Shown here piece after piece: positions 6,193-53,514 of a stretch of 54,338 nucleotides of DNA; positions within the stretch are counted from its first letter, which is position 1, and each line of letters begins with the position of its first letter. The stretch covers positions 1 to 54,338 of IMG/VR virus record IMGVR_UViG_3300021389_000029; one strand, given 5' to 3'. The DNA comes from a virus. Under the pieces are notes generated by a model. It saw only the letters and a list, made by a program, of their open reading frames with translations. It was not told the origin of the DNA and did no database searches. The position numbers and the translations under genes were made by a program.

Positions 6193-6202
6193 GGAAATTA
6201 AA

Positions 6203-8704: not shown

Positions 8705-8706
8705 AA

Positions 8707-14979: not shown

Positions 14980-14986
14980 AAAAGAT

Positions 14987-14994: not shown

Positions 14995-15025
14995 ATATAA
15001 AAAATCATATGCAAAAGGTAAAACA

Positions 15026-28123: not shown

Positions 28124-28149
28124 GGTATGAACTAAAATATTAGGAATTG

Positions 28150-30492
28150 ATGCAAATGGCTCAACGGCAAATAACAAATCTCGCTACATTCTCAAATTAT
28201 GGAATGAGTAGACTCAGAACTGGATTTACTAAAATTGATGGAACCGCTTCTATCGACTCTAATGAAGTCGTGTCGGGTGGAATGATGATGGCCTTAGCGT
28301 TAGATATGAAAAATACTTGGGGTATGTTTAACGGAGCTCCAGATGTCGGAAATGAATTAATAGATTCATCTAATGTACCCATAACAAAACAATTCTTTGA
28401 AGAAATATCACTCAACAGAATAGGAGATTTTTCGGGAACATATTCTGGGTCTGCTAACTATAGCCAGTCAACACCCTCTGCGCCCTCTCAACATGTTATG
28501 TTATTTCAATCCACAAATGATATTTTGCCCAATAATGGTACAGTTTCTAGGGGATTGGATCAAAATTATAGGATACGTTTTGAGTTAGATTTGAGACCGA
28601 GACTTTATTTTAATCATGGGACCGGATTGGGTGACAGAGAATTTGCTCAAGAATTATATCAATTAAATATGAGAATGGATTCTTTAGGACTTTATCATTA
28701 TTCTGCTGGCAACCAAATAAACGAACAAGCGTTCAAACCAAATTCTTACTATCCCGACACAGTATACAGACCTGATAATTTTATTCTCCCAGCATCTGGT
28801 TTTAGTGGGAGTTCTGGTTGGGAGGATCAAATTGGTATTCCAAATCCTATGTATGGATGGTTTAAGGTTAATGTGGGTTGTTCAAATCAATTATTGGCAT
28901 CTGGTGATATTTCTAGTCCACAAACAGAAACCAATGGATTAATAACACTGGAAAATGGTTCTACAGTAGATACATCTATTTTGAGGATGCCAGGAGAGTG
29001 TGTAGATTTGACATTTGAAGATGTCACTGTTCTTTCAGACCCTTCCAACACAGGTCCATATTATGTACAAGGGACTATAACAGAAGACAATCCACAACCA
29101 AAGTATTATTTTCCTGTGTTTTTAGATCAATACGCAGCAAATCAATACGATGGAGCGATTGCTAACACTGCGTCTACCACCCCGATTTCTGCTGTCTCTA
29201 ATACGAGTCCTGTGATTGTGACCACCTCTGCGGCACATGGATATACTGACGGCCAACCAGTACATTTTAGTTCTATCTCTCCGACGATAAACCCATTAAA
29301 CGGAAACACATATTATATAAAACTTATTGTTGGCAGTGTAACTCAATTTAGAGTATACATGAACTCAAATTGTACAATTCCATTAGATGGCACTCTTTGG
29401 AGTACTGCTCAACAATACACTGGTGGCGGGACAGTATCTTCTGGTGTTGGAACATCTGTTGCAAAAACTGTTACAGAATTTCCATTGCTGACGCTGTATG
29501 TACCTACTACTTCGCATGGGTCTGCTACATGGGGTTCTGATACGGCTCCAAGTTCTGTAACGGGATTTAAAAAATATATAAACAACCGATCTCTTCGATT
29601 TAGAAATAAGAAAAAGGGTTCTGGTTGGTTTAAAAGATTTCCTAAAACAGAACCAGTTTTACAAGGGTCATATCCATTTTCATATAGACTTACTATGACA
29701 GAAAGAGGAATATTTTTATATATTCACGATGATGCTGCATCCGATCAGGCAGATGATTACGCATGGCTTGCAGTTCAAAGAACTGTAAATAATGAGACCG
29801 GTATAACAAGAACAGATGAAGGTTCAAAGTTTCCATTACATACGATGTATTCATGTTCAAGAGATTCTGTATATTCTAGGGATGCTGGTGTTTATTTTTC
29901 TCAGGCCGCGGCCAATTTGCAAAATGCAGAAAATACGGTAGATACAGTTTATGACGAATCAGGCAACACATACAACTTATCAAATTTAGACAACAGCAAA
30001 ACATTTTATATATTAAGTCCATATGATAGAGAAGATTATCTTGCAGATGAATATACTGCAAAAAATATTTGGAGATTTGTTGCAAGAGAATTTGATATTT
30101 TAAAACCCACAGATGTTCATAAATTTGCCACACGACATCAAGTTGACAGCAACGCAGTCATTAATCCACTTGAACAATTATCTATCACAGACGAAAACAG
30201 ATTTGTTATAACATTTCCGACCGGATTGACGACTCAAAGATTTATGTATCCAAAAGAAGAAATGGATTTGATTTGTTTTTCATCTGCTGAAGTAGTTGCG
30301 GAGTCAAGTAATATTCCAATGACAACTTATAAGTATGATGGTACAAGCATAGATAAACGCAGATATCAGGGCATGCGTTCCACGGCAGCTTTTGGTAACG
30401 GTATGCGAATTATGGCTTTAGTAAACGGACAGAATATTCATAATAGTGATGTAGTATTGGATATTAACGATCCAATTGGAATAGAAGTATAA
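28150..30492 (+). CDS. Structural paralogue P1, with FCCH-like domain
   Basis: A 780-residue member of a four-gene family in this window. Shared blocks: a M-P-G-E-C-V-D-L segment (nt ~28985), block A near nt 29667 (SYPFSYRLTMTERGIFLYIH; DQADDYAWLAVQR) and block B from nt 30073 (FVAREFDILKP; SNAVINPLEQLSIT; TTQRFMYP; GNGMRIMAL). Only P1 carries a segment at nt ~29167-29455 with VTTSAAHGYTDGQPVHFSS and LNGNTYYIKL, the pattern of FCCH-type beta domains common in phage virion proteins. Its N-terminus differs from the S-I-Q-R-N-E start of the other three. A TTG at 28147, ATG at 28150 and ATG at 28156 are all possible starts; AGGA at 28142-28145 fits the last two. No enzyme motif is seen, and the role is presumed peripheral tail or fibre. 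Confidence 0.7.
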   Translation: MQMAQRQITNLATFSNYGMSRLRTGFTKIDGTASIDSNEVVSGGMMMALALDMKNTWGMFNGAPDVGNELIDSSNVPITKQFFEEISLNRIGDFSGTYSGSANYSQSTPSAPSQHVMLFQSTNDILPNNGTVSRGLDQNYRIRFELDLRPRLYFNHGTGLGDREFAQELYQLNMRMDSLGLYHYSAGNQINEQAFKPNSYYPDTVYRPDNFILPASGFSGSSGWEDQIGIPNPMYGWFKVNVGCSNQLLASGDISSPQTETNGLITLENGSTVDTSILRMPGECVDLTFEDVTVLSDPSNTGPYYVQGTITEDNPQPKYYFPVFLDQYAANQYDGAIANTASTTPISAVSNTSPVIVTTSAAHGYTDGQPVHFSSISPTINPLNGNTYYIKLIVGSVTQFRVYMNSNCTIPLDGTLWSTAQQYTGGGTVSSGVGTSVAKTVTEFPLLTLYVPTTSHGSATWGSDTAPSSVTGFKKYINNRSLRFRNKKKGSGWFKRFPKTEPVLQGSYPFSYRLTMTERGIFLYIHDDAASDQADDYAWLAVQRTVNNETGITRTDEGSKFPLHTMYSCSRDSVYSRDAGVYFSQAAANLQNAENTVDTVYDESGNTYNLSNLDNSKTFYILSPYDREDYLADEYTAKNIWRFVAREFDILKPTDVHKFATRHQVDSNAVINPLEQLSITDENRFVITFPTGLTTQRFMYPKEEMDLICFSSAEVVAESSNIPMTTYKYDGTSIDKRRYQGMRSTAAFGNGMRIMALVNGQNIHNSDVVLDINDPIGIEV

Positions 30493-30520
30493 TTAAAAAG
30501 AGAAACAACAAAATATTTTT

Positions 30521-30528
30521 TATAAATA
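30521..30528 (+). promoter_or_regulatory. T4-type late promoter, TATAAATA, before P2
   Basis: Exact octamer in the 62-base gap between P1 and P2, followed by a TAGGAG ribosome-binding site at about 30543 and the ATG at 30555. Confidence 0.78.
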
Positions 30529-30554
30529 ATAAGAAAATTAGATAGGAGACCTTA

Positions 30555-33500
30555 ATGTCTATTGCAAGCGGATTTAGTATTCAGAGAAATGACGTTATAC
30601 AAGTGCCACATAGGCAACAATACGAAAGTCACGATGCAATTTCGGGAGATAAAATCTATCTTTTGAGATCATTGCCAGATTATGAAGACAAGAATTGGGA
30701 TTGGGATATTCGAATGGGTGAAGTTAGAACTCATCTAGAACGAGGGGCAGCTGCTTTAGCGGTGAATGGGAATAATACCACCTCGACTGGCGTTGGCCCA
30801 ACCGGAGTTTACCCAACAGAAAAAGTGGCATGGAACGCAAATGCATATACAGAAGGGTCTCTTGCAGCAGGACTAGGAACTGTTATGTACGATTCTCAAT
30901 ATGGAGAATTTGGAGCTATTGTATTCCATGAATCAGCTCAACCAATGCCGGGCGAAATAGTTGAGATTTCATATACAGAACATACAAGTAAATTTACTGG
31001 TTCTGGTGGTTTATTATATCAACTTGCACATGATATGTGTATTCACCCTTTCGATTCACCAGAAATATTTCAAGCCCACTTTGGAAATTACACAGAATTC
31101 GTGGATGATAATGCCGCCGAGGCTGGCAACCAGCGCGGCGACGTGGGCAAGGAATATGTATCTAACATTCCTTCTGCTGGTCTCGCAGGATCAAATAATT
31201 TCGCTGCATTGGGCCCAGCTGGTGCTGTCTTGACAGGTACAGCTGCAGAGGATCTAAAAGTTTTTAAAAACAACCTCTCTATAAAATACAAAGATTTATT
31301 GGATGATGACATTAAAGAGGCGACACAAAGAACTGTTCAGAATTTGTGGAAGGTCGTAAGAGAACACAAAGAAACTGCAACTATTAATATGAGCGCCAAC
31401 ACAAGCGGCGCGACAACCAATGCGGATCTTTTCGCGACGGACACAGTGCCCACAATAGCTGAAACATATAGCTTGGCCAAATTACAAGCTGCTTCGACGG
31501 CGGCAGAGATTACAGCGCAAACTATTCCACTTATGACAGACTTCCCATTAATTGAGAGCGATCTTGGTAGTGGCGAATTTAGAGTTTCTATTGACGGAAA
31601 ACTGATTAATAGAGATGATTGGATAGTTACCAGCGATGTTTCATCAAGAAGATCGACTTTTAAATTAAAAAGAACTACTGGCATGCCTTGGATTAGAAAT
31701 CTTGGAGCTGTCGAAGTCTCTATTGCATATGTCTGGGGCAAATCTATCGATGTTCCTTATGGAGCATTAGTTGGTAGACAAGGACTAGGTCCAGATCAAG
31801 TCACATCGACTTTGGCGGTTAATGAGGTATCTTTCCCACATGACGATCAGGCCTACGATAGTAATATCCTAGATGCAAATACACAAAAGTATTGGATATT
31901 TAGTAGGGCGTTTAGGTCGCCCACCAAAGTGTCACCACTTGATCCAAAAAATGCATTTTTTGGATGGCATACGGCTAGCGCAGCTACTGAGGCGACTATA
32001 GTAACAGCTCAAGAAGGATCAACTGGTCCATTATCATTGTCTGCGATCGCAACCGCCGAGGCCTTGTCGGGAAGACACAAGAATACTGCTAAAATTAATG
32101 ATTCTGATGTTATGTATCTGGAAATGAAATCTTCTGATGAATATTCAAGACCATTTCAATTGATATATCCGCGGCCGCTTACTTCGGGGTTGACGTCTTC
32201 CGATAGTGATATAAAATCTAAATTAAGAGAAATTACAGATAGATTTGTAGTCGAATCAGAAAGAGGTGTCGATCTCCTGTCTGATAGTAATTTGAGTTTT
32301 GTTAATAGTAACAGCCCTGTAAGTAATAGAAAACCACAGAAATGGCGTATAAGATTTGTTTGGGATGAGACATCACTATCTCTAAAAGTCAATGTTGGTA
32401 CAGATTTGCAAATTTTAGATGATTGTACTGTATCAACAATGCAAAATCGAGATGGAATAAAATCTCCAATATTCAGAGAGCCGGGCGAACTGTGCGATGT
32501 ATATCAAACTCCTGCTATTGGCCGTGGTACTAGTGTGTCAATTTCACGAGCGAAGTCTCAATTTTTTAGAAAATCACAAATCGAAAAAGAAATGGCTCGC
32601 AGTTATCCCATGTCTTTTAAAATGACTTGTACTGATCACGGCATGGGATTGTTCTTGTTTGATCAAGCCTCTGTTGACCAAGACGACGATTATGCATGGT
32701 TTGTAATTCAAAGACATGTAAATCAATCAACTGGACAACCGGAATTTGCAGATAAATCACCAGTACATTGTGTATATTCGCCATCAAAAAGACCGACAGA
32801 TGTGAGTACACTGACTCCATATTATTCATCTTCTGACATAAACGATATGAGCAAACCACCAACCATTTATAGTTCTCTTGCTGGTGTATATAAAACTGAA
32901 GCACCGACAGTATATATCAGTAAAGATGCTGCGTTTTTTAATGGTAGGGTAAATGCAATTGATTTTAATGGATATGGATATGCATCTGGTACTGCTCAAG
33001 GATCGGTTGCTGCAACCACTTTAGAAATTTCTGATGTAAAGGTAGATTTATTTAGAGGATTGTCGGGAAATATGTCTGCAATCAATACTGATTTGTGGTA
33101 TGAAAAAACATATTCTTTCTTTGTTAAAATTGATGACGCCATAAATCCACCAAAAATTCAAAAAGGACATTTTTTGGCATGTAGAAACAAGGCTGGAGAT
33201 GTTGACGACACAAATCCTATTATATGGGGGGGTAGAATAAAAGAATGGTTCCCATCCACTGGAAAAATTACAATTTCATCGGTAAATAATATTACTGGCG
33301 ATGAAATTCGAGGTGACAGTCTCACCGATGTTACTACTAACGCAGATGGTACTCTATTGAAATTAATTGACGCTGATACTGCGACAGATGGTTCTACTAC
33401 TATAAACCTTGAAATTGGTATGTCAAATTCTGGTGATGTTACAGATGGTACTTTCCAACCATTTGCTTCAACTGCCGAGGCGCTCACAAGAACGGCTGAA

Positions 33501-35303
33501 TACAAAAAAACAACTTTAAAGTTAAAAACTATGCCATATGTGAATATCTCTGGACCATCCAGCGAGATTACAGATTTGGCTATTACAGGATTTAATTCTT
33601 TGCCTAGAAGAAGAGACACATCTATAGCATTGAATGCGTCACCAGCGCCAGGTGCTGTTGAACAAGTTGAAAAACAAGTTACATCGGGTGTTGTTACTGC
33701 TGAGGCATTGATTCGTGGTATCACAACTACTGGTGATAATCTCATAGATGCGACACCGGCCGCCGCAAATTGGGCAATCGGAAATGACACATCTTCACAA
33801 CTCTCCCAAAATATAATTTGGCCAACCCAAATTATTGAAAGAATGTCAACATTTAAAAATGCTTCTCAAGATGGTACTGGTGTACCTAGTTCTGTAGAAA
33901 ATATCAATTTGACTAATTATGCAGAAGGTGATTCTGCTTTAATGGACATTTTATATACAGCACAACCAGAAAATGTCGATAAAGTATTTGAATCTATGGT
34001 TGTAACTTTAGATGAAGTTGAAGTTATAAGAGATTCAAAAGCATATATCCTAACTTACGATGAATGGGTAAGAAGAGGAGATCCGACTACTGTTCCTAGA
34101 TTTATGGAATCTTTAGAGGCTGCTGGTGTGACCAATCTTGGACCAAATTTTAAACTTCCTAATATAGATGCGAGTACTGTGCCAAATTTCAATGCGTTAC
34201 AGCCAGGAATGGATCCAAACGCTACAAGTAACAATATTATTTCGTATACTACACAGAATTTTACTACTGGAAAAAGATTCTTTTCAGAATGGAATACTAC
34301 AACAACAGGTATATATTCACATGTGGATAACTCTGGAAACATCATCGCGCCGGATACTACTGGCTCAGGGTTTGCGAGTGGTAGCTCAACTACACCCACG
34401 GACGATGCTGACACCGATTGGGTACAGGGTGTGGATTATCCACATTGGGTTATTGATTCTAGTAAATTGGTTGCTTCTGCCAACGATTCAAAATTGAGTT
34501 CTAAATTGCCGGGCGATGTAATATGGACAAATACAACTGGTAGAAACGAATATATGTATGATTTTTGGAATAAATCTCTTTATTTTAAGAATTCTCCAAG
34601 ATCAGGATCGTCATTCTCAATTTCTATGATCAACTACCAAACATCAAATCCAAGTCAAGGAACATATATTATTTCTACTCCCGAAGATAGAAATTTCCCC
34701 GAAACAAATATGAATGATGTTAAGTCTATTAATAGATTTATTGTAAGAGAAAAAGATGTGTTTAAACCGTGGGATTACCATGTTTCTGCAACAATGCATG
34801 AAGTAGATTCACATGCTATTATAAATCCGCAAGAACAACTTTCGATTACTCAAGGAAGAAATTTCGTATTTTCTTTCCCAACACAATTGACAAGTCAGAG
34901 ATTTTACTATCCAGAAAGTGAACTGGATCTGATTTGTGTTTCTTCTGCTGATTTTTCAACTCAAGCTGGGTATGTAGAAATTGATAAATACAATGACTCT
35001 GATGGCAAGATAACACCAGCTGGCAGTGGTTATACAGATCCAGTTCAAGTAGCTATCAACGCCGTATCGGACACCAACGAAATCAATGAAGATTTACATA
35101 AGATAAACACTACAAACGCTGGTGCTTATGGTGGGCATTTGGCGCCGGATGGATCTTACCAGATTTGGAGAAAAAATAAAAGAAGGTATGAGGGCATGCC
35201 TTCAACATTGCCGAACGGAAATGGTATGAGAATATTCTTACAAGTTACCGGATCTAGTATTTCATATAGTGATGTAGAAAATGGCTCCGCACCTGTAGCC
35301 TAA
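30555..35303 (+). CDS. Structural paralogue P2
   Basis: A 1582-residue family member. The N-terminus has SGFSIQRNDVIQVPHRQQ, shared in pattern with P3 and P4. Shared inner blocks are KPQKWRIRF then VNVGTDLQIL and FREPGELCD (nt ~32330-32510), block A (SYPMSFKMTCTDHGMGLFLF; SVDQDDDYAWFVIQRHVN; nt 32599-32725) and block B (FIVREKDVFKPWDYHVSA; HAIINPQEQLSITQ; GNGMRIFLQV; nt 34733-35250). The part between A and B (nt ~32900-34700) is unlike the paralogues. GC-rich islands lie at 31111-31150 and around 31400 and 33755. A 48-base tract in block A is identical to P3. It is apparently a large beta-rich virion protein; no catalytic motif is seen. Confidence 0.72.
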   Translation: MSIASGFSIQRNDVIQVPHRQQYESHDAISGDKIYLLRSLPDYEDKNWDWDIRMGEVRTHLERGAAALAVNGNNTTSTGVGPTGVYPTEKVAWNANAYTEGSLAAGLGTVMYDSQYGEFGAIVFHESAQPMPGEIVEISYTEHTSKFTGSGGLLYQLAHDMCIHPFDSPEIFQAHFGNYTEFVDDNAAEAGNQRGDVGKEYVSNIPSAGLAGSNNFAALGPAGAVLTGTAAEDLKVFKNNLSIKYKDLLDDDIKEATQRTVQNLWKVVREHKETATINMSANTSGATTNADLFATDTVPTIAETYSLAKLQAASTAAEITAQTIPLMTDFPLIESDLGSGEFRVSIDGKLINRDDWIVTSDVSSRRSTFKLKRTTGMPWIRNLGAVEVSIAYVWGKSIDVPYGALVGRQGLGPDQVTSTLAVNEVSFPHDDQAYDSNILDANTQKYWIFSRAFRSPTKVSPLDPKNAFFGWHTASAATEATIVTAQEGSTGPLSLSAIATAEALSGRHKNTAKINDSDVMYLEMKSSDEYSRPFQLIYPRPLTSGLTSSDSDIKSKLREITDRFVVESERGVDLLSDSNLSFVNSNSPVSNRKPQKWRIRFVWDETSLSLKVNVGTDLQILDDCTVSTMQNRDGIKSPIFREPGELCDVYQTPAIGRGTSVSISRAKSQFFRKSQIEKEMARSYPMSFKMTCTDHGMGLFLFDQASVDQDDDYAWFVIQRHVNQSTGQPEFADKSPVHCVYSPSKRPTDVSTLTPYYSSSDINDMSKPPTIYSSLAGVYKTEAPTVYISKDAAFFNGRVNAIDFNGYGYASGTAQGSVAATTLEISDVKVDLFRGLSGNMSAINTDLWYEKTYSFFVKIDDAINPPKIQKGHFLACRNKAGDVDDTNPIIWGGRIKEWFPSTGKITISSVNNITGDEIRGDSLTDVTTNADGTLLKLIDADTATDGSTTINLEIGMSNSGDVTDGTFQPFASTAEALTRTAEYKKTTLKLKTMPYVNISGPSSEITDLAITGFNSLPRRRDTSIALNASPAPGAVEQVEKQVTSGVVTAEALIRGITTTGDNLIDATPAAANWAIGNDTSSQLSQNIIWPTQIIERMSTFKNASQDGTGVPSSVENINLTNYAEGDSALMDILYTAQPENVDKVFESMVVTLDEVEVIRDSKAYILTYDEWVRRGDPTTVPRFMESLEAAGVTNLGPNFKLPNIDASTVPNFNALQPGMDPNATSNNIISYTTQNFTTGKRFFSEWNTTTTGIYSHVDNSGNIIAPDTTGSGFASGSSTTPTDDADTDWVQGVDYPHWVIDSSKLVASANDSKLSSKLPGDVIWTNTTGRNEYMYDFWNKSLYFKNSPRSGSSFSISMINYQTSNPSQGTYIISTPEDRNFPETNMNDVKSINRFIVREKDVFKPWDYHVSATMHEVDSHAIINPQEQLSITQGRNFVFSFPTQLTSQRFYYPESELDLICVSSADFSTQAGYVEIDKYNDSDGKITPAGSGYTDPVQVAINAVSDTNEINEDLHKINTTNAGAYGGHLAPDGSYQIWRKNKRRYEGMPSTLPNGNGMRIFLQVTGSSISYSDVENGSAPVA

Positions 35304-35329
35304 GGTTTATTAGTCGGAAAAATACTATG

Positions 35330-35337
35330 TATAAATA
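35330..35337 (+). promoter_or_regulatory. T4-type late promoter, TATAAATA, before P3
   Basis: Exact octamer in the 62-base gap between P2 and P3, followed by AAGGAGATC at about 35352 and the ATG at 35366. Confidence 0.78.
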
Positions 35338-35365
35338 TAAGTAAAACATTTAAGGAGATCAATAA

Positions 35366-38300
35366 ATGCCAACATCAACCTCACTGAAAACTCCATTTCT
35401 GTCGGGGGGATATTCCATTCAAAGGAATGAGATGATATCAATCCCCCAAACAAGACAACGGCAGAGATTTCAGTTCATGAACGAATTTAATCAAACTTTC
35501 GCTAAGTTTGATCGAGCGGCACAAGGCCTTGGCAGAGGCGCACAAGAACAACTTGACAGAGTTCCGGCATACGAAATAAGATCAGAAAAAAGAGAAGTTC
35601 AAAATGGAGTCATTAGTTCTGTCAAAAAACCTCTAACTTATAAATTTGCAACTGGTTCTAACAAAGCTACTTTAGGAACTGTTGTTTTAACTGATTCTAC
35701 ATCTCCATTGGGCGAAGGAGTAATTCAACAGTTTGCTATTTCCAATGGTGGTCAAGGATATACGCCTGGAGCTGATTATGGAGTATGTATCAGAGGCGGA
35801 GAAGCAGCAAACAAGACCCCCCAACCAGCTAACATTACTTGTAAGGCTGATGGTAACGGTTCTATAACATCATTTACAATACATGATGGTGGACAGAATT
35901 ACACTCTCGCTGGGGATACTGGTAATGGTTATCCAGCATTGACAATGGAAATTGATGAAACTCCATTGTTAGGACAGTTTGTTGTAACAAGACTTAATGG
36001 AGAAACCGAAGATACGGGTGTGGGAGCAATAACAAGTATAGATATTACATCCACAACATTGACAGGACATAGGCCGGGCGTCTGGTTTGTTTCTCATAAT
36101 GGAAGCGACAAAGTAATTACTACCGATAGCACTGATGGTGTTGTAAATAATTTAATGATACAAGTTTTTGTAAATCAATTAGGAAAAATTAACAAAGTTA
36201 CTTTCTGTTCTTATGGCGAAAAATTTTTGGTTGGTGATACACTCACAATCCCACAATCCCAACTGGGTGGAATTCAAGACGATTCTTTGGGCGTAAATGA
36301 TTTAGTATTAACTGTCACCACAGTCGCAGATCAAAATCAAGTTGATTTAGATCATGGTACTGCAATTTGGAGAAGTGAATCTTTTGAAGCCGGTGTTGAT
36401 GTTGTTATGGAATATACAATTGACACCAATATCGACACAAAGACTGAAGATGGATTTTTAAGAACACTTGCTAAGGACCTTTGTTTACACCCATATGCAA
36501 ATTACTACAGTTCTGCATGGAGCACTGTTGCTCAAAGAAAAGCTACTCTGCAGCTGACGGGCGCTCCGCGCACTATGGTCACGTCCGGCACCGCTGAAGT
36601 GACAGCAACACTGCGCGATAGAGAAACCAATGTAGCATTAACAGAATTGACTGGCGGCTTTAAATCTGAGGATATAAAGAAGAGAATTATAGAACCCTAC
36701 GGAAGTGGTACTATGTATATTACTGGTGTGGTTGATGGTGTAGCGACTTGTACTATGCTAAAATCTGGAACTTATAATGATGAGGATGTAAATACTTGGG
36801 ATGATCCAACTCAGGAGTTCTATCTTATGGATCATTGGAGACTTTGTATAGACCAACATGCTGATCCAAGCGGCACATATCCCGATACCAATCTTGGCGG
36901 ATTCGAATCGCAACCCTATAATTTAATTTATCCTAGAATAGATGAATTTGCATCAAATCATATTCTCATTAGAGATAATGGACAACAAAATCATAGAGAT
37001 GTTATGAGTTGTATTCGTCGGATAGGTGATTTGTTTGTTGTAGAATCGGAAAAGGCGACAGATCTTCTTTCATCTTTAGCCGATGTGAGCTCAGCTTCAG
37101 TTTCTATACCAAGAACGATAAACTTAACACAACCTGTCAGAGACCAGAGAAAACCTCAAAAATGGCGTATGAGATTTTATTATGATTCAAGAGATGAATA
37201 TTTATATGTTAATGTTGGAACTTCCTTACAAATTATGGATAATGGGGATTTGACAAGTGGACAAGGTCGAGATGGTATAAAAAATGCCGTGTTTAGACAG
37301 CCAGGAGAACTGAGTGAAATTTATTATAATTTCAGTAATGATGATAATAAAGCAAAATCCGGTTTCTTTAGGAGACAGGGGAAAACTGATGACGGAATAG
37401 ATTCGAATTATCCAATGGCATATAGACTTACTTGTACTGACCACGGTATAGGATTTTTCATGTTCGATCAAGCCTCAGTCGACCAAGACGACGATTATGC
37501 ATGGTTTGTAATTCAAAGACATGTAAATAATGTCTCTGGAAAAATTGAAGGCGAAGATGGAAAATCCCCAGTTCATTGTTTATATTCACCATCAAAAAGA
37601 CCTGAAGAAACTAGTGATTTTAATATGGGATTCTTTGCTGAAGTGGTTAATAAGTTAGACCCTGAGACCGGTACGACTACCGTAACATCAAAAACTCTTG
37701 GCGATTTAGAAATTTTTGATGTAAATGGTAGAAAACTTACGCCCGGACTTCCACTAAATCAAAGTATTTTGACTTCTGGTTTTCCAGTTATGTCTAGAAC
37801 AACACCATATGGACAAGGAACAAGCTATGTAACTCCTCCATCAACAGGGGGATTGCGCCTTACAGATTCTTCTAATATGGGCACAGATTTAACCTCTGGA
37901 TATTCAAACGTCAATGATTTTATCGAATTTCCACCTGTCACCTCAACCAATTATACTGGATTAGAAAAATCTAACTTAGATGATTCAGCAGTGATTGATG
38001 AAGTACTTGCAGATGGCGTCGTAACCGAACCAGCTATATATGCTTTTCCGATGGGATATGGTAGAAATTTTGGTAGTAATTTCGTAACTGTTGGCGATTA
38101 TTATGTTGATATGAAAAATTCCACCAGATATACTGACGCATCACCGGGCAATTCAAAACCAAGTGCCTTTTTCAGATCTGCTGGCGGAGTGTCAGTGCCG
38201 GCCGAGGGTAGTACAGAGGCAGTGTCAGGCCGAGACGACATGGGATTGGCGAATTATGTTAATGCCAGAAATCAAATGCAAGGCCCAGCGAGATTGGGAC

Positions 38301-40255: not shown

Positions 40256-40298
40256 TACTTTCACCGATTAAAATTATTCAAATAATCTAAAAATTTAA

Positions 40299-40306
40299 AA
40301 TAAATA
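40299..40306 (+). promoter_or_regulatory. Possible variant late promoter, AATAAATA
   Basis: One mismatch from the late-promoter octamer, 38 bases before the ATG at 40345 and directly before the hairpin. If used, the hairpin would form at the very 5' end of the new transcript. Weak evidence. Confidence 0.3.
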
Positions 40307-40307
40307 G

Positions 40308-40333
40308 AGGGGGAACTTGTTTCCCCCTTTTTT
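40308..40333 (+). terminator. Rho-independent-type terminator hairpin after P3
   Basis: AGGGGGAA at 40308-40315 pairs with TTCCCCCT at 40321-40328 across a 5-base loop, followed by a T-run to 40333. This is the clearest terminator in the window. It ends only 11 bases before the ATG at 40345, so it may also act on translation or read-through of that gene. Confidence 0.75.
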
Positions 40334-40344
40334 GCAGAGTATAC

Positions 40345-43812: not shown

Positions 43813-43813
43813 C

Positions 43814-46800: not shown

Positions 46801-46861
46801 TAATAATGTAGACGATGTAAGAGAATTGAGGGGGTATCCAGTTTATGCCAGCTGTAACTAG
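43814..46861 (+). CDS. Large unrecognised virion-type protein
   Basis: A 1015-residue protein that I do not recognise. The ATG at 43814 (MAVSFQGRVGPIVQTVTRTI) is preferred over an upstream in-frame ATG at 43754, which lies inside the acidic repeat gene. The first ~600 residues are beta-rich with many Phe, Asn and Ser. Near nt 46010-46130 a predicted coiled coil reads LQKEVNNLQEELQFSVNFKA then LQKQIEELSATII. The C-terminal ~200 residues contain W-V-E-D-Q-R-S-K-G-R-G-L-F-D and IDRKSNMWQKNDYLIMSIT, and it ends DVRELRGYPVYASCN. It overlaps the PAAR gene by 17 bases and begins 1 base after the acidic gene stop, so all three were probably co-transcribed. A structural role linked to the spike tip or acidic stalk is an inference from that linkage only. 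Confidence 0.65.
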   Translation: MAVSFQGRVGPIVQTVTRTIDNIIFDSNDSIEVSYVNYFFSSTEKSSSEVIVEYTDGLPLHTGPKSNSEFVAEYHHEKYVDEQKSSVIVESFNYMTGTFSSYEDRSASKKSFDFNRNIVLSNQSLLYTITGNDYKVGLQTVGDWEIRPFLQTASTKHLINNPFLDDPESKAPPWDGQVLLESGTSFSHNPIFFQGIAYNFPEPTEFISKTSKLINENSNFSRHLESFNLLNQNFARSMHISNPTTHDVIEMKSGLYVMQPEMFNKSNTIYRSLGYGPPADKAVSISLTVSNPRDTFSKNNQFSKLLDNYSSKDDEFVEIVKNTTLNDVTWVDKIKVLNFEFSKTAYFERTNPLEVPVKVFYTPVLDKPFIHKVFFVNFDIGKPKFKPFLQSPDKTFLIEQNYMHSTVSIGKGPKNKFKHLMIEELYRPGFRSYEQVYEFIMEKFEVVSSTQFDYNKFGHTFYEVIQTKRPSLSGGSNAFGHDLLPIEVGPTSIKNKIFNLEEHVENSLQAAGRSGTHRDGEYREIQNIDLYEFQYLDYDVKSKGPYSEDWRLDKEKSTFNFIYTIDEDPSNGRLPECLSFDDGRLTGTVHETDKFLRKYSWEDWMKIQGETDSDGNFISLSDSLDFSYEDFELITPRKWEVNLTGRSITKGTIDLVYNGVELKRGDIITQTIAGQSSEFEIVEKVSEFDKETDRATGGLITETIHRYEFENLRGEIEITTLTDLFVETFVDGKSELQKEVNNLQEELQFSVNFKASVLQKQIEELSATIIENDLVNPTGYAYIEKTPSGKQVNYQYVLNEEGDSFVVDDLEMLTGGVVTKFIKLIFTIRNNWSFDRDLRLFTDSSIIDSEFPNRTDWVEDQRSKGRGLFDPQLNNNEIDKMLIGYMKEYKDSIISIERYLEERDIIIESRIYIDPDQKIKYKNFLDRFIYIDRKSNMWQKNDYLIMSITSEDFFLEFPINDGIDRGQSLDTISETENGKQVFKINCDFNVDEQTFYNNVDDVRELRGYPVYASCN

Positions 46862-47783
46862 ATTAGGAGATCGATGTACTGGTCATGGTTGTCACCCGCC
46901 TCGACCGAATAGATCAGCAAGTACAGATGTATTTGTAAATAGTAAGGGAGCACATAGAAAAGGCGATGGATGGCATGTTCATGTATGTCCACCAAAAATA
47001 TATGCGCCGCACGGTTCAATTCTCGCGGCCGGTTCATCGTCAGTTTTTGCAAATGGAAAACCAATCGGAAGAATAAACGATCCAGTTGCGTGTGGTTCTT
47101 ATGTTCGAGATGGAAGTGGAAATGTTTTTGCTGGAGATAGTTCTCCACCTGTGCCACCTTTATCGGATGTTCCGGTAGATATCTCGCAAGAACATGAAGA
47201 TTATATGAAAGAAGGAATAATTACCGCGCCAAAGAATAGTGAAACTTTTGAATATGGTGATGGTGGAATATCTAATGGCGATGGTGGATACTTATCAAAT
47301 AATACAAGTCCTGTAAATAATGTTACTGGACCACAAGATGCTCCAATAGAAGATAATAGTGTTCCATTTGAAAGAGTTGATGATCCAACATTGAATTTCT
47401 TACCACACACAGATTCTAGAATTGAACCAGCACTGAAAAATATTCTTATTGAAGTTGCTAAAGAATGGGGCCGGACACTTGATATAACCAGCGCCTATCG
47501 CAGTCCAGAGTATAACAAAAAGGTTGGTGGGGCTAAAGGAAGTATGCATCAACAGGGTAAGGCTACCGACATTATAATGTCTAGTTATAGCAAAACCGAT
47601 AGGGCAAGATTTATTGATATATGCGTTCAAAAAGGAATAAAGGGTATTGGATTGTATAATACTTTCACTCACATTGATATTGGAGGCAAACGGGCATGGG
47701 GATCAAATGGCAGTAGAACAAGTATTCCAAGATTCCCTTGGGCGATATCTACTTTGAAAAAACATGGTTATGCTACTGGTTGA
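46845..47783 (+). CDS. PAAR spike-tip protein fused to an M15 peptidase
   Basis: A 312-residue, two-domain protein. Residues 1-~98 form a PAAR domain: MPAVTRLGDRCTGHGCHPP, then D-V-F-V-N, HGSILAAGSSSVFANGKPIG and RINDPVACGS, with His14, His43/45, Cys48 and Cys83 as candidate metal ligands. Residues ~185-312 look like an M15A-type peptidase: LDITSAYRSPEYNKKVGGA, SMHQQGKATDI (His235, Asp242) and FTHIDIGG (His276). The linker (~100-180) is Gly/Asn/Pro-rich. PAAR proteins such as T4 gp5.4 cap the gp5 needle and sharpen it; here a wall-cutting enzyme would ride on the tip. T4 gp5.4 is only ~97 residues and has no peptidase. The ATG lies within the end of the previous gene (17-base overlap). Confidence is high for both domains. 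Confidence 0.85.
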   Translation: MPAVTRLGDRCTGHGCHPPRPNRSASTDVFVNSKGAHRKGDGWHVHVCPPKIYAPHGSILAAGSSSVFANGKPIGRINDPVACGSYVRDGSGNVFAGDSSPPVPPLSDVPVDISQEHEDYMKEGIITAPKNSETFEYGDGGISNGDGGYLSNNTSPVNNVTGPQDAPIEDNSVPFERVDDPTLNFLPHTDSRIEPALKNILIEVAKEWGRTLDITSAYRSPEYNKKVGGAKGSMHQQGKATDIIMSSYSKTDRARFIDICVQKGIKGIGLYNTFTHIDIGGKRAWGSNGSRTSIPRFPWAISTLKKHGYATG

Positions 47784-47790
47784 TATTTGT

Positions 47791-47798
47791 TATAAATA
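47791..47798 (+). promoter_or_regulatory. T4-type late promoter, TATAAATA
   Basis: Exact octamer 19 bases before the ATG at 47818, followed by a TAGGAG ribosome-binding site at about 47804-47809. The short spacing means the transcript would have a very short leader. Confidence 0.7.
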
Positions 47799-47817
47799 AT
47801 ACATAGGAGATTTTTAA

Positions 47818-48735
47818 ATGGCAGGCGCATTTCCACTCAAGGCTATTGTACAAACTACCGGAGATGTTGTACTTGGAGAGTTTTTAGAATCTGATTTCGT
47901 TGGCATTTTAGACGGCGGAACTGGTGCAGGCGGTAATGGTGGACTCCCTGATACTGCCACCGATTCGGAAAAATTATTAGCAATAAAAGGTCAAGTAAGA
48001 TCAAATTTTGATTTGATAAAATTTGATACATATAATACATTGGCAGAACTACAATCTGAGGTTGCTGATAGTGGTCGTTTAGCTTTGCTTAATTCTAATT
48101 TATATTATTCAACTGGTTCTAGTTGGATAGCTCTTGCAGAAGCATTGACGGTCGATACTAATATTACGGGAAATATAGAATTTGCTGGTAGTATAATTTC
48201 GACATATGATCCAACTACAAACACTACAACTGCAAGTTTAGATCTTACACCATTGCAATCCGAACTTGATACGACACAATCAGCAGCAGGACTAAATGCG
48301 GATGGGACTTATACTGCCGATGGCACCACTAATTATTTGACAACCTCTACATCTTTGAAAGATTCTGATGGACTTCTGGATTCTGCTATATTCTCAGAAA
48401 GAACCAGAGCTATTGGCGTAGAAACAACAATTATTACAGATCAAAACACCATAGAAAATAACTTGCAAAATTTTGAATATTCCGGTCATACAAGCGCCCA
48501 AGTGTCTGCAGCGGGTAAAGTTAGTATTGCTTATGATATAAATACTGGCAAATTCGTACCTGATGATAATTTTGGAACTGGTGGGTTTATAAAATTTACA
48601 AAAACTAATGGTACAAGGGATGATATTCCATTGACAACTACATTTACAGGTAACGAAATGACCAGTGGTGAAGTAGATTTTTTCATGGCAAATGGCACAC
48701 AGGATAATATCGATCTCATTATTAACGGTGTGTAA
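47818..48735 (+). CDS. Short fibre-like structural protein
   Basis: A 305-residue protein. Its start, MAGAFPLKAIVQTTGDVVLG followed by EFLESDFVGILDGGTGAGG, matches the start of the fibre gene at 53603 (both G-D-x-x-x-L-x-E-F-L, then G-I/L-x-x-G-G-T-G-A), which suggests a common attachment domain. The middle includes YNTLAELQSEVADSGRLALL, a Y-Y-S-T-G-S-S-W segment and Thr-rich beta stretches. The C-terminus has two similar strands ending in N-G-T-x-D-(D/N)-I (TNGTRDDIPL; ANGTQDNIDL). No enzyme motif. It is probably a minor fibre or collar component. Confidence 0.62.
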   Translation: MAGAFPLKAIVQTTGDVVLGEFLESDFVGILDGGTGAGGNGGLPDTATDSEKLLAIKGQVRSNFDLIKFDTYNTLAELQSEVADSGRLALLNSNLYYSTGSSWIALAEALTVDTNITGNIEFAGSIISTYDPTTNTTTASLDLTPLQSELDTTQSAAGLNADGTYTADGTTNYLTTSTSLKDSDGLLDSAIFSERTRAIGVETTIITDQNTIENNLQNFEYSGHTSAQVSAAGKVSIAYDINTGKFVPDDNFGTGGFIKFTKTNGTRDDIPLTTTFTGNEMTSGEVDFFMANGTQDNIDLIINGV

Positions 48736-48743
48736 TTTTTTTT

Positions 48744-48751
48744 TATAAATA
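48744..48751 (+). promoter_or_regulatory. T4-type late promoter, TATAAATA, before P4
   Basis: Exact octamer preceded by a T-run, in the 60-base gap before P4; a TAGGAG site at about 48783 precedes the ATG at 48796. The spacing to the ATG (44 bases) is longer than for the other paralogues. Confidence 0.75.
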
Positions 48752-48795
48752 ATAAAAACAAACATGCACAGAATTAAAATTATAGGAGCACATAA

Positions 48796-51700
48796 ATGTC
48801 TATTTCAATAAACAGAAATGAAATTGTCCATATGGATGATTATTACAGAGATAGGAAAAGAGAGACCTTCAAACCACTAATCCAACAGATGTCCGAAGAT
48901 ATGTTGGATAATGGATTTAAAGATGTAGGTCCACAAATTACTAAGATTAGTATCAATGATGATAATTTAACACAATTTATCGATGAATTTATTTGTTTTT
49001 ATTACGATTCGAGTGTTGGTCAAGTTGGAAAAGGTGCCAGCGGTATAAATGTTTTTGGCAAGGTCGCGGATTATGATACCGGCACATCTGTGTACACCAA
49101 CCGAAATGAAGTTGGAAATTTAAGTGCTACGACATACTTTCTTGATGGAGAAAAAGGTAGTAGAATTAAAAAAATTGATGATATATACGACAATCCAAAC
49201 TGGAACGAAAATATTGCTAAAAAAATTCCAGCGATTGGATATCCCAATTATACTATTAGGGAAGGGACCCATTCGACGAACTCTAAAGACAATGCTATTA
49301 CAGGAACATCTAATTATCCGGCTGAATTCTTTAAAGCTACTGACGGAACTGCTATTACACACGTTTCTTCGTTGATTCCAAACTATACAAAGGAGGCAGA
49401 TAATCTAAACTGGGGCGATGAGGACGCACTGGAACTTGACACAAGTGTTTTTGGACAAGTATTAGGTCCAAATTCAGAACTTTTTGCATATTTAAATCCA
49501 CATCCAAATATGCGCGGAAGTACACAAGCAATAAGAGATTTTATTGCACCAAACTTTCCATCTAGTCCTTCAAATGGAGATACCCACACAATACATACGA
49601 ATGATGGTCCGGTCATCTATACATATGATGGTAGTATTTGGAATGGTGCAGACGGATCTACACATACCGGAACATCGACTTTAGATTCAAGTGTTCTCAG
49701 CGATGGAGGTAGTGTTAAAGGAATTCCATTTGGTTCTGGATGGAAAGATATAAATGATTTAGTTCCTTCAAGTGGATTTACCTGGCCCACTCAAGCCGGT
49801 GCTTATAAAGAACGTGGCGATCGGACAGATAATTCGCGGCCACTGGATTTAAAGGACGGACATTTTTATAAAAAAACGCCAGGGACCCCCGATATAGCGA
49901 CCGGTTCTGAAGTAATCCTAGTAGGCCTAGCAAGTGCAACAGAATATGCTGAAAAAGGTATTACAGATAGCACTGGATGGGACTTCATCACCACCGGAAC
50001 CCCCGACGCAACTGCGACCCCACCCACCACTTTGCCGCCAACGGCGTCCAGCAGCAAAGCAGGCCAGTCAACTTCTATCCCCGTATACCGAACTTTGCCT
50101 GCTTATCTTAATCAAGCAGGATATGTTGGATTGTCAGAGATTTCGAAAGCGGTATATTTGAACGAATTTAATAAAGTAAAAACTCTTCTTACACACCAAT
50201 CTCGAGGTGTTGTTATGCGGCCAGATTCTGCATCTGGAGTCAATACAAAAGCAACTATTAGAAATTATAGAAAAACTGTAGAAGAAAAAGGCCCAGACAC
50301 ACATGATTTTTGGATTTCAAATTATAAAGACGAAAACTTTTTTCCAGCAGGAACAGTAGAACCTAAAAAATTCGAAGGCGAATTGATGATTGGTTTTGAT
50401 TCGACATATAACAATAATGTGTTTCAAACTGGCGATGTATATACTTTCTCTTTTATCCATACTGCATTTGGCGCTGGAGCACAAACATTTACAATTCCTG
50501 TAGAAGTTGTACAAAGTACTGTAGCCGGATTCAGCAATTCAGTTTTTGAAGCTCTTTCAAAGAATCAATTATTTGATCCTGCATCCGGAGCATATTCTGT
50601 TGTAGATGGTGGCACTCTGTCTCCCAAGAGAAATGGTGTGTTAATTATAGAATCTAACAACATTGGTAGCAATTTGACGTCATCTGTTTCAAGAGTTGCA
50701 AGACCTATGGAGAGTTTTACTAATAATATACAATCATATATTGTAACTGATAACAACACACTATTCAATTCTACAATGACTAATGGCGATGGTGGTACGG
50801 CTTACACCTTAAACACATTTGAAAATGGATATGTACATGAAATTCAATTGCGCGGGTTTAGTGGCGCAAACAACGATGATGAATTTGAGTTCACAATAAA
50901 TAATCTGTTAGATGAACTTCCTAATGGTGGACTGGCAGATGTAAATAATCCAGCACTCAGAAGTGAAACTATTTACTTTAAGACAGGTGTTGCATTAAAC
51001 TCAGGTCAATTAACAGAGGCCATAGCTGCTAAGATTAGACAAAACGCATATATGAATAAGTATATGGAAGTTATATCAAATTCAAATGCTATTACTCTCA
51101 GATATAATAGACTTTCTTCTGGATATATGAAAAAGGGTGATGTTGGAAAAAGTCATGGATTACTTGCTGCAAATAGTGTCGCCCAAGGCGGCACAGGATC
51201 CGTATTGTTTACTGGCAAAACAGTAGGACAGACAAATTCCGAAGAATTTTCTATAAATGGTATCGCAGAAGAGGATGTTCCTGCCGCAGCAAAATTCAAT
51301 ATTGTGGGTAATGCTGTTTCCGGTTCTACTAATATAACTGCAATGCGAGTTGCAGCGGACGGAACATCTGCATCTACAGATACCACATATCTCGCTGCAA
51401 CGCTTCTAGATGAGAATGATTTTACTCCTGCTAAAACTGTAGACACAACCGGAGATCCATTCAACTATCGTGGAGATAATGGCGCAGTCGAAGTGATTCA
51501 AGTGGGGTTAGGAACATCTATTAAAAGAGTTAGATTAGAATTTCCTTTGGCGAGAGATTTAGGTACTTTTGCGATGCCGGTTCATGGGCAATATACAGCT
51601 TATGTTGCTCCAGCAACCAGTAGAAAAACTTCGTATTTTTCATCATATGAACAAATGGTGCTTGCTAAAAAGACGGGCAGACCAGAAGGTCCACAAGTTT

Positions 51701-53514
51701 CTTTCGATTCTATTGTAATTGCACAACACCCAAATACTTCACATGGCGGAGTTCAAAATGGTATAGTAGGTTATGAAGAGTTTGAAACTTATTCTCACGA
51801 TATTGATATTGAAACTTTCGAATATATCACAGATTATTCTATGGGTCCAGTAGTATTAGAAACCGATAGACTTCACAAATTATCGGGTTATCCAACTGGC
51901 AGAGAGGGTGAAATAGAAGGTGATCAACCTTGGAGAATAAGATTGAATATCACCAGAGGACATGAAATCCAAGAAGCTTCTCCTTATATTGCAGATGCAG
52001 TTTTGCAAGTTAATCCTGAGCAAGATTCTTCTAATTCTTTTGAATATTTACAAGTTCATGTAGCTACAGAATTTCAACTTAAAGGTGATGGAACTGTCGC
52101 AAAACCCGAGGGGAAAGATGGTCTCTCCGCTGTCACCACTATGAGAGAACCGGGCCATTTGGGTGGACTCAGACCCCAATATAAAGGGTATTTAGAAACT
52201 GCTGTTCATAAGGTAAATCCTTTTGTTCAAAGATCGAAACTTGACAGCGGAGTTAGAACTGGTTTTAATTTTAGTTCGGGAGTTGTCGGTATCCATCATT
52301 TCAATGATAGTCATGAACTGATGTTGGATCACTCATCAGTATTTACTCAAGAAGTCATTGCGGTGCCAGCATCGGGCAGCGGCGCCACGGCCGTGACCGC
52401 CGTAGCAGGCGTACCGAAGTACTTTTCTGTTGGCGGCGAGGGTGAAGGACAGATTCCATTAAAAGTGGTTGGATCAAGAATTATGACAGATTATGATTCT
52501 GGTATTTTAGTAAATGATGAGTATAGATATGAAGAACATTATTTGAGGGGTACATCTACAGAATTGGTACATGATACACCATATAATAATGGAAATTTAA
52601 GACTGCAAAAAGGATTGTTTAGAAGAACTGGGAAATCAAGATCAGATATTGCTCCAGCATATCCTATGAGTTATTATATGACAATTGTTGATCATGGAAT
52701 TGCATTTTATCTTAGAGATCAAGCTTCAACACAGGCAGATGATAATGCATTTTTTGTTGTACAAAGACATGTTCATTCTTCGGCAGAAGTTGGTAATGGA
52801 ACCACAAGTGCGCCTCAATTTCGTGCTGGTTATCCTGATATGGGAATTGATGGAAGTGATCATCAACCAATTCATTGTGTATATCAATCTTCAGAACCGA
52901 CATTGTTGTATTCTGATTTAGAACCACTCTTTACAGAAAAAGATTTGTCAAGAAGATCTTCTATTGCAAATATGGGACTATACGATCTTGAAGGAAATCA
53001 AACATTTGACTTTATGACATCAAGACTAGAATCAGCTGAGATGTCATCGGTAGATTTGGAAACTCAAAGTAGATTTAGAAGATTTGTTGTTCGAGAAAAA
53101 GATGTTCTAAAACCTTGGGATAGACATGTATTTGCTGGAGTTAATGAAAGAGATTCTACTTCTATTATAAATCCACTTGAACAACTATCTCTCAATGACC
53201 GTGGAAAACTTGTAATTCAATTTCCAAATAGATTGGGATCGCAAAGATTTATGTATACCGGCAGAGAAATTGATTTGATCGGTTTCTGTGCTGCTGGCGC
53301 GGTCGGACAAGATACTTTGATTAGTAGTGATAGGATGAGTACAGCCGGGCAAGGTGGTACGGGATCTGATGGCGATTATAGAAGATTGTATAGAGGGATG
53401 ATGTCAACTGGTGAGTTTGGTTCGGGGATGAGAATTCTTCTTCTAGTAGCAGAAAATGCTGCAGGCGATTCTATTATGCCTACCAATGCCGACATTAGAT
53501 TACTGGACAATTAA
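48796..53514 (+). CDS. Structural paralogue P4
   Basis: A 1572-residue family member. It begins MSISINRNEIVHMDDYYRDR (compare S-I-Q-R-N-E in P3). Family blocks: QPWRIRLNITR with LQVHVATEFQL and REPGHLGGL (nt ~51930-52170), block A (YPMSYYMTIVDHGIAFYL; STQADDNAFFVVQRHVH; nt ~52660-52780) and block B (FVVREKDVLKPWDRHVFA; TSIINPLEQLSLND; GSQRFMYTG; GSGMRILLLV; nt 53077-53450). It lies about 8.5 kb away from P1-P3, separated by the acidic/PAAR block, and is the most diverged in blocks A and B. GC-rich islands lie at 49991-50070 (encoding a Thr/Pro/Ala-rich stretch) and 52361-52420 (Ala/Gly/Val-rich). Its function is inferred as peripheral tail or fibre structure; no enzyme motif is seen. Confidence 0.7.
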   Translation: MSISINRNEIVHMDDYYRDRKRETFKPLIQQMSEDMLDNGFKDVGPQITKISINDDNLTQFIDEFICFYYDSSVGQVGKGASGINVFGKVADYDTGTSVYTNRNEVGNLSATTYFLDGEKGSRIKKIDDIYDNPNWNENIAKKIPAIGYPNYTIREGTHSTNSKDNAITGTSNYPAEFFKATDGTAITHVSSLIPNYTKEADNLNWGDEDALELDTSVFGQVLGPNSELFAYLNPHPNMRGSTQAIRDFIAPNFPSSPSNGDTHTIHTNDGPVIYTYDGSIWNGADGSTHTGTSTLDSSVLSDGGSVKGIPFGSGWKDINDLVPSSGFTWPTQAGAYKERGDRTDNSRPLDLKDGHFYKKTPGTPDIATGSEVILVGLASATEYAEKGITDSTGWDFITTGTPDATATPPTTLPPTASSSKAGQSTSIPVYRTLPAYLNQAGYVGLSEISKAVYLNEFNKVKTLLTHQSRGVVMRPDSASGVNTKATIRNYRKTVEEKGPDTHDFWISNYKDENFFPAGTVEPKKFEGELMIGFDSTYNNNVFQTGDVYTFSFIHTAFGAGAQTFTIPVEVVQSTVAGFSNSVFEALSKNQLFDPASGAYSVVDGGTLSPKRNGVLIIESNNIGSNLTSSVSRVARPMESFTNNIQSYIVTDNNTLFNSTMTNGDGGTAYTLNTFENGYVHEIQLRGFSGANNDDEFEFTINNLLDELPNGGLADVNNPALRSETIYFKTGVALNSGQLTEAIAAKIRQNAYMNKYMEVISNSNAITLRYNRLSSGYMKKGDVGKSHGLLAANSVAQGGTGSVLFTGKTVGQTNSEEFSINGIAEEDVPAAAKFNIVGNAVSGSTNITAMRVAADGTSASTDTTYLAATLLDENDFTPAKTVDTTGDPFNYRGDNGAVEVIQVGLGTSIKRVRLEFPLARDLGTFAMPVHGQYTAYVAPATSRKTSYFSSYEQMVLAKKTGRPEGPQVSFDSIVIAQHPNTSHGGVQNGIVGYEEFETYSHDIDIETFEYITDYSMGPVVLETDRLHKLSGYPTGREGEIEGDQPWRIRLNITRGHEIQEASPYIADAVLQVNPEQDSSNSFEYLQVHVATEFQLKGDGTVAKPEGKDGLSAVTTMREPGHLGGLRPQYKGYLETAVHKVNPFVQRSKLDSGVRTGFNFSSGVVGIHHFNDSHELMLDHSSVFTQEVIAVPASGSGATAVTAVAGVPKYFSVGGEGEGQIPLKVVGSRIMTDYDSGILVNDEYRYEEHYLRGTSTELVHDTPYNNGNLRLQKGLFRRTGKSRSDIAPAYPMSYYMTIVDHGIAFYLRDQASTQADDNAFFVVQRHVHSSAEVGNGTTSAPQFRAGYPDMGIDGSDHQPIHCVYQSSEPTLLYSDLEPLFTEKDLSRRSSIANMGLYDLEGNQTFDFMTSRLESAEMSSVDLETQSRFRRFVVREKDVLKPWDRHVFAGVNERDSTSIINPLEQLSLNDRGKLVIQFPNRLGSQRFMYTGREIDLIGFCAAGAVGQDTLISSDRMSTAGQGGTGSDGDYRRLYRGMMSTGEFGSGMRILLLVAENAAGDSIMPTNADIRLLDN

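Follow-up and report, generated by a model that had tools for sequence, protein, structure and literature searches.

Four large and mutually similar proteins, here called P1 to P4, are encoded in the IMG/VR virus record IMGVR_UViG_3300021389_000029, which was analysed over its whole length of 54,338 bases (the window), and the question raised by this locus is what such a family does for the phage that carries it. A preliminary description had proposed that the four share an ordered set of conserved blocks, that more than 16 kb is devoted to them, and that they are perhaps receptor-binding or virion-decorating proteins, either alternative or co-assembled. We assign P1–P4 to the phrog_12249 family, with a predicted fold of the type found in gp47 and gp48 of phage JBD30 and, with moderate confidence, a role in a fibre; most likely they are virion proteins. 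The interpretation that we favour, and consider fairly probable, is that they would be co-assembling subunits of a lateral attachment fibre on a T4-like contractile tail.

Paralogy and the extent of the common core

Blastp connected all six pairs of P1–P4, with best E-values per pair from 4e-20 (P3-P4) to 2e-61 (P2-P3), and a control of 50 rounds with shuffled proteins gave no hit at E<=1e-3. Each protein matched the phrog_12249 profile (E 2e-48 for P1, 7.2e-39 for P2, 2.7e-32 for P3 and 2.5e-34 for P4), and all four were found with a profile derived from 12 compact family members in other phages (E 2e-35 to 1e-52). These comparisons confirm, at the level of sequence, the proposed four-member family of paralogues, and its open reading frames (ORFs) sum to 16,704 bp, in agreement with the earlier estimate. 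The four genes, with lengths in amino acids (aa), are as follows.

28147..30492, + strand: P1, 781-aa ORF, the least enlarged paralogue; its AlphaFold2 (AF2) model matches JBD30 gp47
30555..35303, + strand: P2, 1582 aa (ORF, blastp, phrog_12249 match)
35366..40255, + strand: P3, 1629 aa (ORF, blastp, phrog_12249 match)
48796..53514, + strand: P4, 1572 aa (ORF, blastp, phrog_12249 match)

The P1 ORF opens with TTG at 28147; the alternative ATG at 28156 ('MAQRQ') is the likelier start, because a methionine stands at the equivalent codon in seven of the seven orthologues listed.

Two main sequence blocks, A and B, are common to the four proteins in blastp. The larger set of segments quoted in the preliminary description occurs in the proposed order in each of P1–P4, but several of the motif letters are exact in P2 and P3 only: P1 reads YRIRF, VNVGC, PGEC and TERGI, and P4 reads WRIRL, VHVAT, PGHL and VDHGI. 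That set had also missed a shared N-terminal element, a strand followed by a helix, which the compact members possess as well. When P1 was aligned with the compact members, the core was found to be kept from this N-terminal element to the C-terminal GNGMR strand, and the same landmarks follow in the same order in P2–P4. Its strand reads S-I-x-R-N in P2–P4 and its helix carries L..D(L/M), like that of the compact members; in P2–P4 the N-terminal element was placed by eye, with weak statistical support (independent E-value 0.04–0.1 for P4). Added length is inserted between core elements at about six places, and block A lies mid-protein in P2 and P3. Read from these alignments, the core extends from one end of the chain to the other, with the extra length in loops. 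The idea of a common core with differing variable parts is thereby upheld, and the C-terminal position that had been proposed for it is not; an arrangement of a C-terminal core with N-terminal variable domains is rejected on the alignment of the compact members and of the N-terminal motif. The landmarks are given below, where the lengths of stretches between them include some core linker.

28204..28308, + strand: P1 N-terminal core element, strand MSRLRTGF and helix GGMMMALALDM (alignment, landmarks)
29008..29670, + strand: P1 stretch from PGEC to block A, 221 aa, mostly insertion (alignment, landmarks)
29170..29430, + strand: E1_FCCH-like small beta domain inside that stretch (PF16190 E 0.027; structural Z 4.7)
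29671..29787, + strand: P1 block A (blastp, landmarks)
30073..30183, + strand: P1 block B, start (blastp, landmarks)
30394..30408, + strand: P1 GNGMR, C-terminal core strand (alignment, landmarks)
30576..30593, + strand: P2 N-terminal core strand SIQRND (landmarks)
30594..31010, + strand: P2 stretch from N-strand to N-helix, 139 aa, mostly insertion (landmarks)
31038..32339, + strand: P2 stretch from N-helix to WRIRF, 434 aa, mostly insertion, ending in core linker (landmarks)
32604..32720, + strand: P2 block A (blastp, landmarks)
32721..34733, + strand: P2 stretch from block A to block B, 671 aa, mostly insertion (landmarks)
34734..34844, + strand: P2 block B, start (blastp, landmarks)
35217..35231, + strand: P2 GNGMR (landmarks)
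35414..35431, + strand: P3 N-terminal core strand SIQRNE (landmarks)
35432..36454, + strand: P3 stretch from N-strand to N-helix, 341 aa, mostly insertion (landmarks)
36482..37159, + strand: P3 stretch from N-helix to WRMRF, 226 aa, mostly insertion, ending in core linker (landmarks)
37409..37525, + strand: P3 block A (blastp, landmarks)
37526..39541, + strand: P3 stretch from block A to block B, 672 aa, mostly insertion (landmarks)
39542..39652, + strand: P3 block B, start (blastp, landmarks)
40145..40159, + strand: P3 GNGMR (landmarks)
48805..48918, + strand: P4 N-terminal core element, SINRNE ... LIQQMSEDMLDNGF (landmarks)
48919..51927, + strand: P4 stretch from N-terminal helix to WRIR, 1003 aa, mostly insertion (landmarks)
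52660..52773, + strand: P4 block A (blastp, landmarks)
53080..53190, + strand: P4 block B, start (blastp, landmarks)
53419..53433, + strand: P4 GSGMR (landmarks)

The loop insertions vary faster than the core. Among orthologues (six relatives for P1–P3, two for P4), identity in inserts and core was 0.37 and 0.71 for P1, 0.35 and 0.70 for P2, 0.33 and 0.71 for P3, and 0.33 and 0.60 for P4, with more gaps in the inserts. The E1_FCCH-like domain of P1, whose PF16190 match falls below the Pfam cut-off, is present in five of the 12 aligned P1 sequences and absent from the other seven; the loops therefore gain and lose modules.

Predicted fold and the 'tail sheath' label

Structure prediction, one of the follow-ups proposed in the preliminary description, was applied to P1 and to a compact member, gp261 of phage PaBG, and both models match the JBD30 baseplate (PDB entry 8rk3). 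The AF2 runs used no templates, and the two alignments (34 sequences for P1, 72 for gp261) differ and partly overlap. The gp261 model had a mean predicted local distance difference test (pLDDT) score of 91.5 and a predicted template modelling score of 0.91, and VIA-align over 991 PDB chains gave 8rk3_G at Z 15.7 (root-mean-square deviation, rmsd, 3.3; 241 of 305 residues; model 4–323), with the next-best entry at Z 4.1. The P1 model had a mean pLDDT of 54.7, the core being better and only fair; over 485 chains it matched 8rk3_K at Z 14.8 (rmsd 4.0; 264 of 317 residues; model 18–758), and the next entry reached Z 4.7. Entry 8rk3 was released in August 2024, which postdates the AlphaFold2 training data. 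A sequence search identified gp47 with its 318-aa chains and gp48 with its 307-aa chains, and the lengths indicate that chain K is gp47 and chain G is gp48. In BFVD, both models reached two proteins of phage Atu_ph07 at E-values no higher than 6e-10; the gp261 model also reached a 295-aa protein of Vibrio phage MAR10 (E 3.7e-5), a length that fits MAR10_044, a gene in the position of gp48. The models thus predict that the P1–P4 core is nearly all beta with one N-terminal helix and has the fold of gp47 and gp48, for P2–P4 by homology only. Sequence searches of the PDB gave no match to P1 at E<=1, and with the compact-family profile just 11 hits (E 0.17–1) to unrelated proteins.

Two findings come from the work of others. 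Among the 14 Coomassie-visible proteins of purified PaBG virions, gp261 (PaBG_00261) is reported as band 10, of 34,778 Da and 'Unknown' (PMC7412058). In JBD30, gp47 and gp48 have similar folds and form three lateral arms; every arm contains three gp47-gp48 heterodimers with a 180-degree rotation between them, and these arms are able to clasp the type IV pilus (PMC11445458). The virion link and the predicted gp47/gp48-like fold support the earlier view of P1–P4 as virion proteins, probably connected with host attachment and possibly co-assembled.

Both phrog_12249 and many RefSeq members carry the annotation 'tail sheath', and PaBG does possess a two-protein sheath; that sheath, however, is formed by gp213 and gp76 and not by gp261 (PMC7412058). 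We compared 32 family-carrying records (24 of 62 IMG/VR loci, both bacterial loci and six named phages). A match to the sheath family PF04984 was found in 30 of them (19 above the Pfam cut-off), always outside the family genes, and was lacking in the other two, G034 and G046. In a relative of the window, G003 (203,815 bases), genes for a 1061-aa sheath, the tube and the portal stand in a row; it is the sole PF04984-positive record among 23 close relatives, the others being shorter and probably fragments. Pfam matches of P1–P4 at E<=1 include no sheath family, and the 12 compact members have no Pfam hits. No sheath fold stood among the best 50 VIA rows for either model, which proves nothing either way. 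Because 30 of 32 records hold a separate sheath gene, and gp261 is distinct from the PaBG sheath proteins, the label is almost certainly wrong. We therefore reject tail sheath identity of P1–P4 as highly improbable, and the RefSeq annotations (for example L032, L033, L054 and L122) likely reflect the spread of one wrong label. The G003 sheath protein (L039:4914-8099) is itself unusually long, and enlargement of structural proteins seems general in the lineage of the window and G003.

Joint conservation, gene neighbourhood and role

The family is widespread, mostly in compact form. With P1 as query, tblastn found 65 phage records (48 Erwinia, eight Dickeya, five Pseudomonas, and a single record each for Phage NCTB, Alcaligenes, Salmonella and Yersinia), and 38 of the best 40 of these have genomes of 248–267 kb. 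The members in other phages are mostly about 320–460 aa long and lack giant insertions; in the genomes inspected among these records they measure about 320–400 aa. The survey of metagenomic phages that had been proposed found the family at 62 loci in IMG/VR (compact alignment as query), and a scan of bacterial genomes found two loci, both in Pseudoalteromonas. There is one copy in PaBG, two in Alexandra, Lu11, Y3, fHe-Yen9-02 and Afa-NA1, five in NCTB, G024 and G025, and at least six in a Pseudoalteromonas-type element; across the family, multiple copies are mostly in tandem. This element (L117, L119, L120) comprises a 127,643-base virus record and contigs of 128 and 203 kb in two genomes, and has about six tandem members with a sheath gene nearby. 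No DNA nearly identical to 28150-53100 was found among the phage records searched.

P1–P3 are adjacent and in the same order in related contigs. P4 was found in seven of the 23 (G001, G002, G003, G008, G015, G017 and G018); as read from coordinates, the remaining 16 end less than 5 kb past P3 or before it, and the P4 blocks lie at least 12 kb beyond, so the seven are the only contigs with room for P4. In a tree of 63 sequences, P1–P4 form one clade (ultrafast bootstrap, UFBoot, 100), and each paralogue forms its own (P1 85, P2 99, P3 100, P4 100); P2 and P3 pair (100), with P4 placed weakly beside them (62). The single clade suggests that the four probably arose by duplication inside the marine lineage and then stayed fixed, apart from the pairs and quintets of the jumbo phages.

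In the window, PHROG matches place a baseplate of T4-like type in the first 17 kb. Further on, P1, P2 and P3 are adjacent, and P4 lies 8.5 kb beyond P3; the genes in between encode, in this order, an acidic repeat protein, a 1035-aa product, a PAAR/M15 protein and a fibre-like product.

133..16708, + strand: T4-like baseplate and hub genes (phrog_230 tube cap, 232 wedge, 350, 430 hub/lysozyme, 261 wedge, 219 wedge, 17744, 438)
46845..47783, + strand: fusion of a PAAR spike-tip protein with an M15 peptidase, located between P3 and P4 (Pfam, PHROG matches)

The PAAR frame is just 102–107 aa in relatives G001–G003, so the fusion is not universal. The acidic low-complexity protein (40345-43812, 1155 aa), with TPDSPQQFETATDD-type repeats, overlaps the next ORF (43754) and is weakly conserved in the same relatives (58–78 bits). 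ORFs resembling fibre proteins lie near P1–P4 at 23965-25155, 47818-48735 and 53600-54338. The families of the first two cross-match weakly in relatives (23–36 bits), the last two have by eye a similar anchor-like start, and the last matches tail fibre PHROGs.

P1–P4 fit the JBD30 plan because several similar subunits are encoded together, near baseplate genes, and are kept together. In the interpretation that we favour, their cores would take the gp47/gp48-type fold and co-assemble in fixed but unequal roles, forming lateral fibres for attachment on the T4-like contractile tail of a marine phage, and the long insertions would project from core loops and make up a rapidly varying exterior in contact with the host. 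We thus infer contact among P1–P4, fibre formation, position on the tail and a binding target. The four could instead be alternative or separately mounted receptor-binding proteins, homo-oligomers with their own receptors and a common attachment core, whose duplications widen host range. They do differ mainly in their insertions, the E1_FCCH-like domain of P1 is variably present, and relatives with a single match, such as PaBG, indicate that the core can work without partners; yet the retention of all four in the seven of 23 contigs long enough for P4, with each paralogue in its own clade, fits fixed joint roles better, and the core is not a separate terminal anchor. We consider separate mounting unlikely, and of the two arrangements first proposed, the same joint retention makes co-assembly likelier than alternative use of the four.

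A role as proteins that decorate the tail or capsid or form its whiskers, protective or aiding stickiness like Hoc without direct receptor binding, draws on the presence of the family in the hairy jumbo phages Lu11, Y3, the JA phages, AD1 and Atu_ph07 (PMC6143709, PMC6102473, PMC13282480), and on the report that Atu_ph07 whiskers are primarily capsid-associated (PMC6102473). We regard it as quite unlikely, since the fold relative is a pilus-binding fibre, the window genes lie in a baseplate/fibre module away from head genes, and the other hairy group (CBB, RaK2, 121Q) has no match to the same profile. Baseplate connectors like T4 gp9, gp10 and gp11, which would carry rather than form fibres, are suggested by the gene order, in which P1–P4 follow the wedge genes (phrog_219, phrog_438), and by adjoining fibre-type ORFs (25178-28120 and 47818-48735, so read from sequence alone, and 53600 onward), but the fold match is to fibre subunits. 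Furthermore, the isolates closest by the phrog_219 wedge protein (Methylophilales Melnitz, Pelagibacter HTVC008M and Synechococcus phages, among the best 12 of 2331 records) lie outside the host genera of the 65 records matching P1/P2, which argues that P1–P4 are not a standard T4-type baseplate part; connectors are, in our judgement, decidedly unlikely.

Several observations weigh against the lateral fibre that we favour. Sequence homology to gp47 and gp48 was sought by profile-profile comparison with three alignments and not found: hhalign gave probabilities of 0.4–1.4% for the family against gp47/gp48, where the gp47 set against the gp48 set scores 90%. Searched with the family profile, JBD30 yields no match at E<=1, P1–P4 do not match phrog_687 (gp47/gp48) at E<=1, and phrog_687 has no match in eight records other than JBD30; because sequence profiles show no link, our claim is of a shared fold and not of sequence-family membership. 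Since plain Foldseek of the gp261 model against the PDB gave no hit at E<=0.001, the match to 8rk3 comes from the second look with VIA. The P1 model is poor overall (pLDDT <50 in 384 of 779 residues), and it is not independent of gp261 because its alignment includes compact members; the fold was modelled for these two proteins, and extends to P2–P4 by homology. The comparison of core and inserts is partly circular, because core segments were picked from conserved matches. Not every relative needs a heteromer, as PaBG and five others of the 32 records show a single family match. Finally, the pair in the siphophage JBD30 lies between the tape measure and the distal tail protein, whereas P1–P4 lie downstream of a T4-like baseplate.

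Hairy jumbo phages and comparison with known systems

Lu11, Y3, the JA phages and AD1 have been reported as 'hairy Myoviridae' (PMC6143709), tail hairs have been reported for Y3 (PMC13282480), and small appendages have been described where the PaBG tail ends (PMC7412058). A profile search found the family in Lu11, Y3, JA29 and Atu_ph07, and tblastn found it in AD1. Atu_ph07 has tail fibres as well as whiskers that are apparently primarily capsid-associated (PMC6102473); its two family members, at 244205-245194 and 246152-247330, lie close to the one tail fibre gene annotated in that region, and they would fall within the published virion-protein cluster CDS 284-329. The profile has no match in CBB, RaK2, 121Q or Motura, and CBB is whiskered and 121Q bears hair-like fibres (PMC7824862). 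A plain correlation of the family with hairiness is therefore imperfect, and because CBB, RaK2 and 121Q lack a match, the family cannot explain all hairy phages. The distribution is nevertheless suggestive, and the family is a good, though unproven, candidate for the builder of hairs in one group of hairy jumbo phages. Extending this, we tentatively raise a possibility that we think rather doubtful: the family would be the building block of tail hairs in one large hairy jumbo-phage group, as JBD30-type heteromeric gripping arms along or around the contractile tail, and would have been captured in a marine T4-like lineage, duplicated to four fixed subunits, and each subunit enlarged about two- to five-fold by loop insertion. 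In the literature searched, which left subscription journals mostly outside its coverage, no publication linked JBD30 with hairy phages, and we found no four-part gripping fibre of the P1–P4 kind.

These results replace a wrong label in many phage records with a testable role, and they link the adsorption fibres of small pilus-dependent siphophages to proteins of giant contractile phages, a connection that sequence comparison here failed to make. They also single out specific genes as candidates for the hairs of jumbo phages of the Lu11/Y3 type, whose decorations have, according to a review, a proposed but not confirmed role in attachment (PMC7824862). The family furthermore illustrates clearly how duplication yields tandem paralogues, from one to at least six copies, with variation between the elements of one conserved core.

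Among known systems, T4 Hoc resembles P1–P4 by description only, in joining a conserved attachment part to variable surface domains (PMC10385173), and it differs in being a head protein with Ig-like domains. In Lydia (Mesyanzhinovviridae), gp67-gp68 have been proposed as JBD30-like two-protein fibres, and the text on these fibres makes no mention of the phrog_12249 family of contractile-tailed phages (PMC11946847). Lydia is a siphophage, one of those phages in which tblastn detects similarity to JBD30 gp48. The jumbo-phage members of phrog_12249 (PaBG gp261, Lu11 gp246-247, Y3 gp151-152, NCTB BN7874_241-244 and 246) have clear sequence homology to P1–P4, and the Lupandier or 'hairy' jumbo myophages share with the window phage contractile tails and mostly tandem paralogues; P1–P4 differ from them in their giant insertions and in their separate clade with its own duplications. 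JBD30 has two subunits of 318 and 307 aa, whereas the window has four of 781–1629 aa, and the protein in the gp47 position is enlarged too in phages JG012, QH16, DoCa5 and DLP_3 (506–544 aa). Common to JBD30 gp47/gp48 and P1–P4 are similar proteins encoded in tandem, a place (for P1–P4 a probable one) in the tail adsorption apparatus, and a core fold that is predicted to run over nearly the whole chain.

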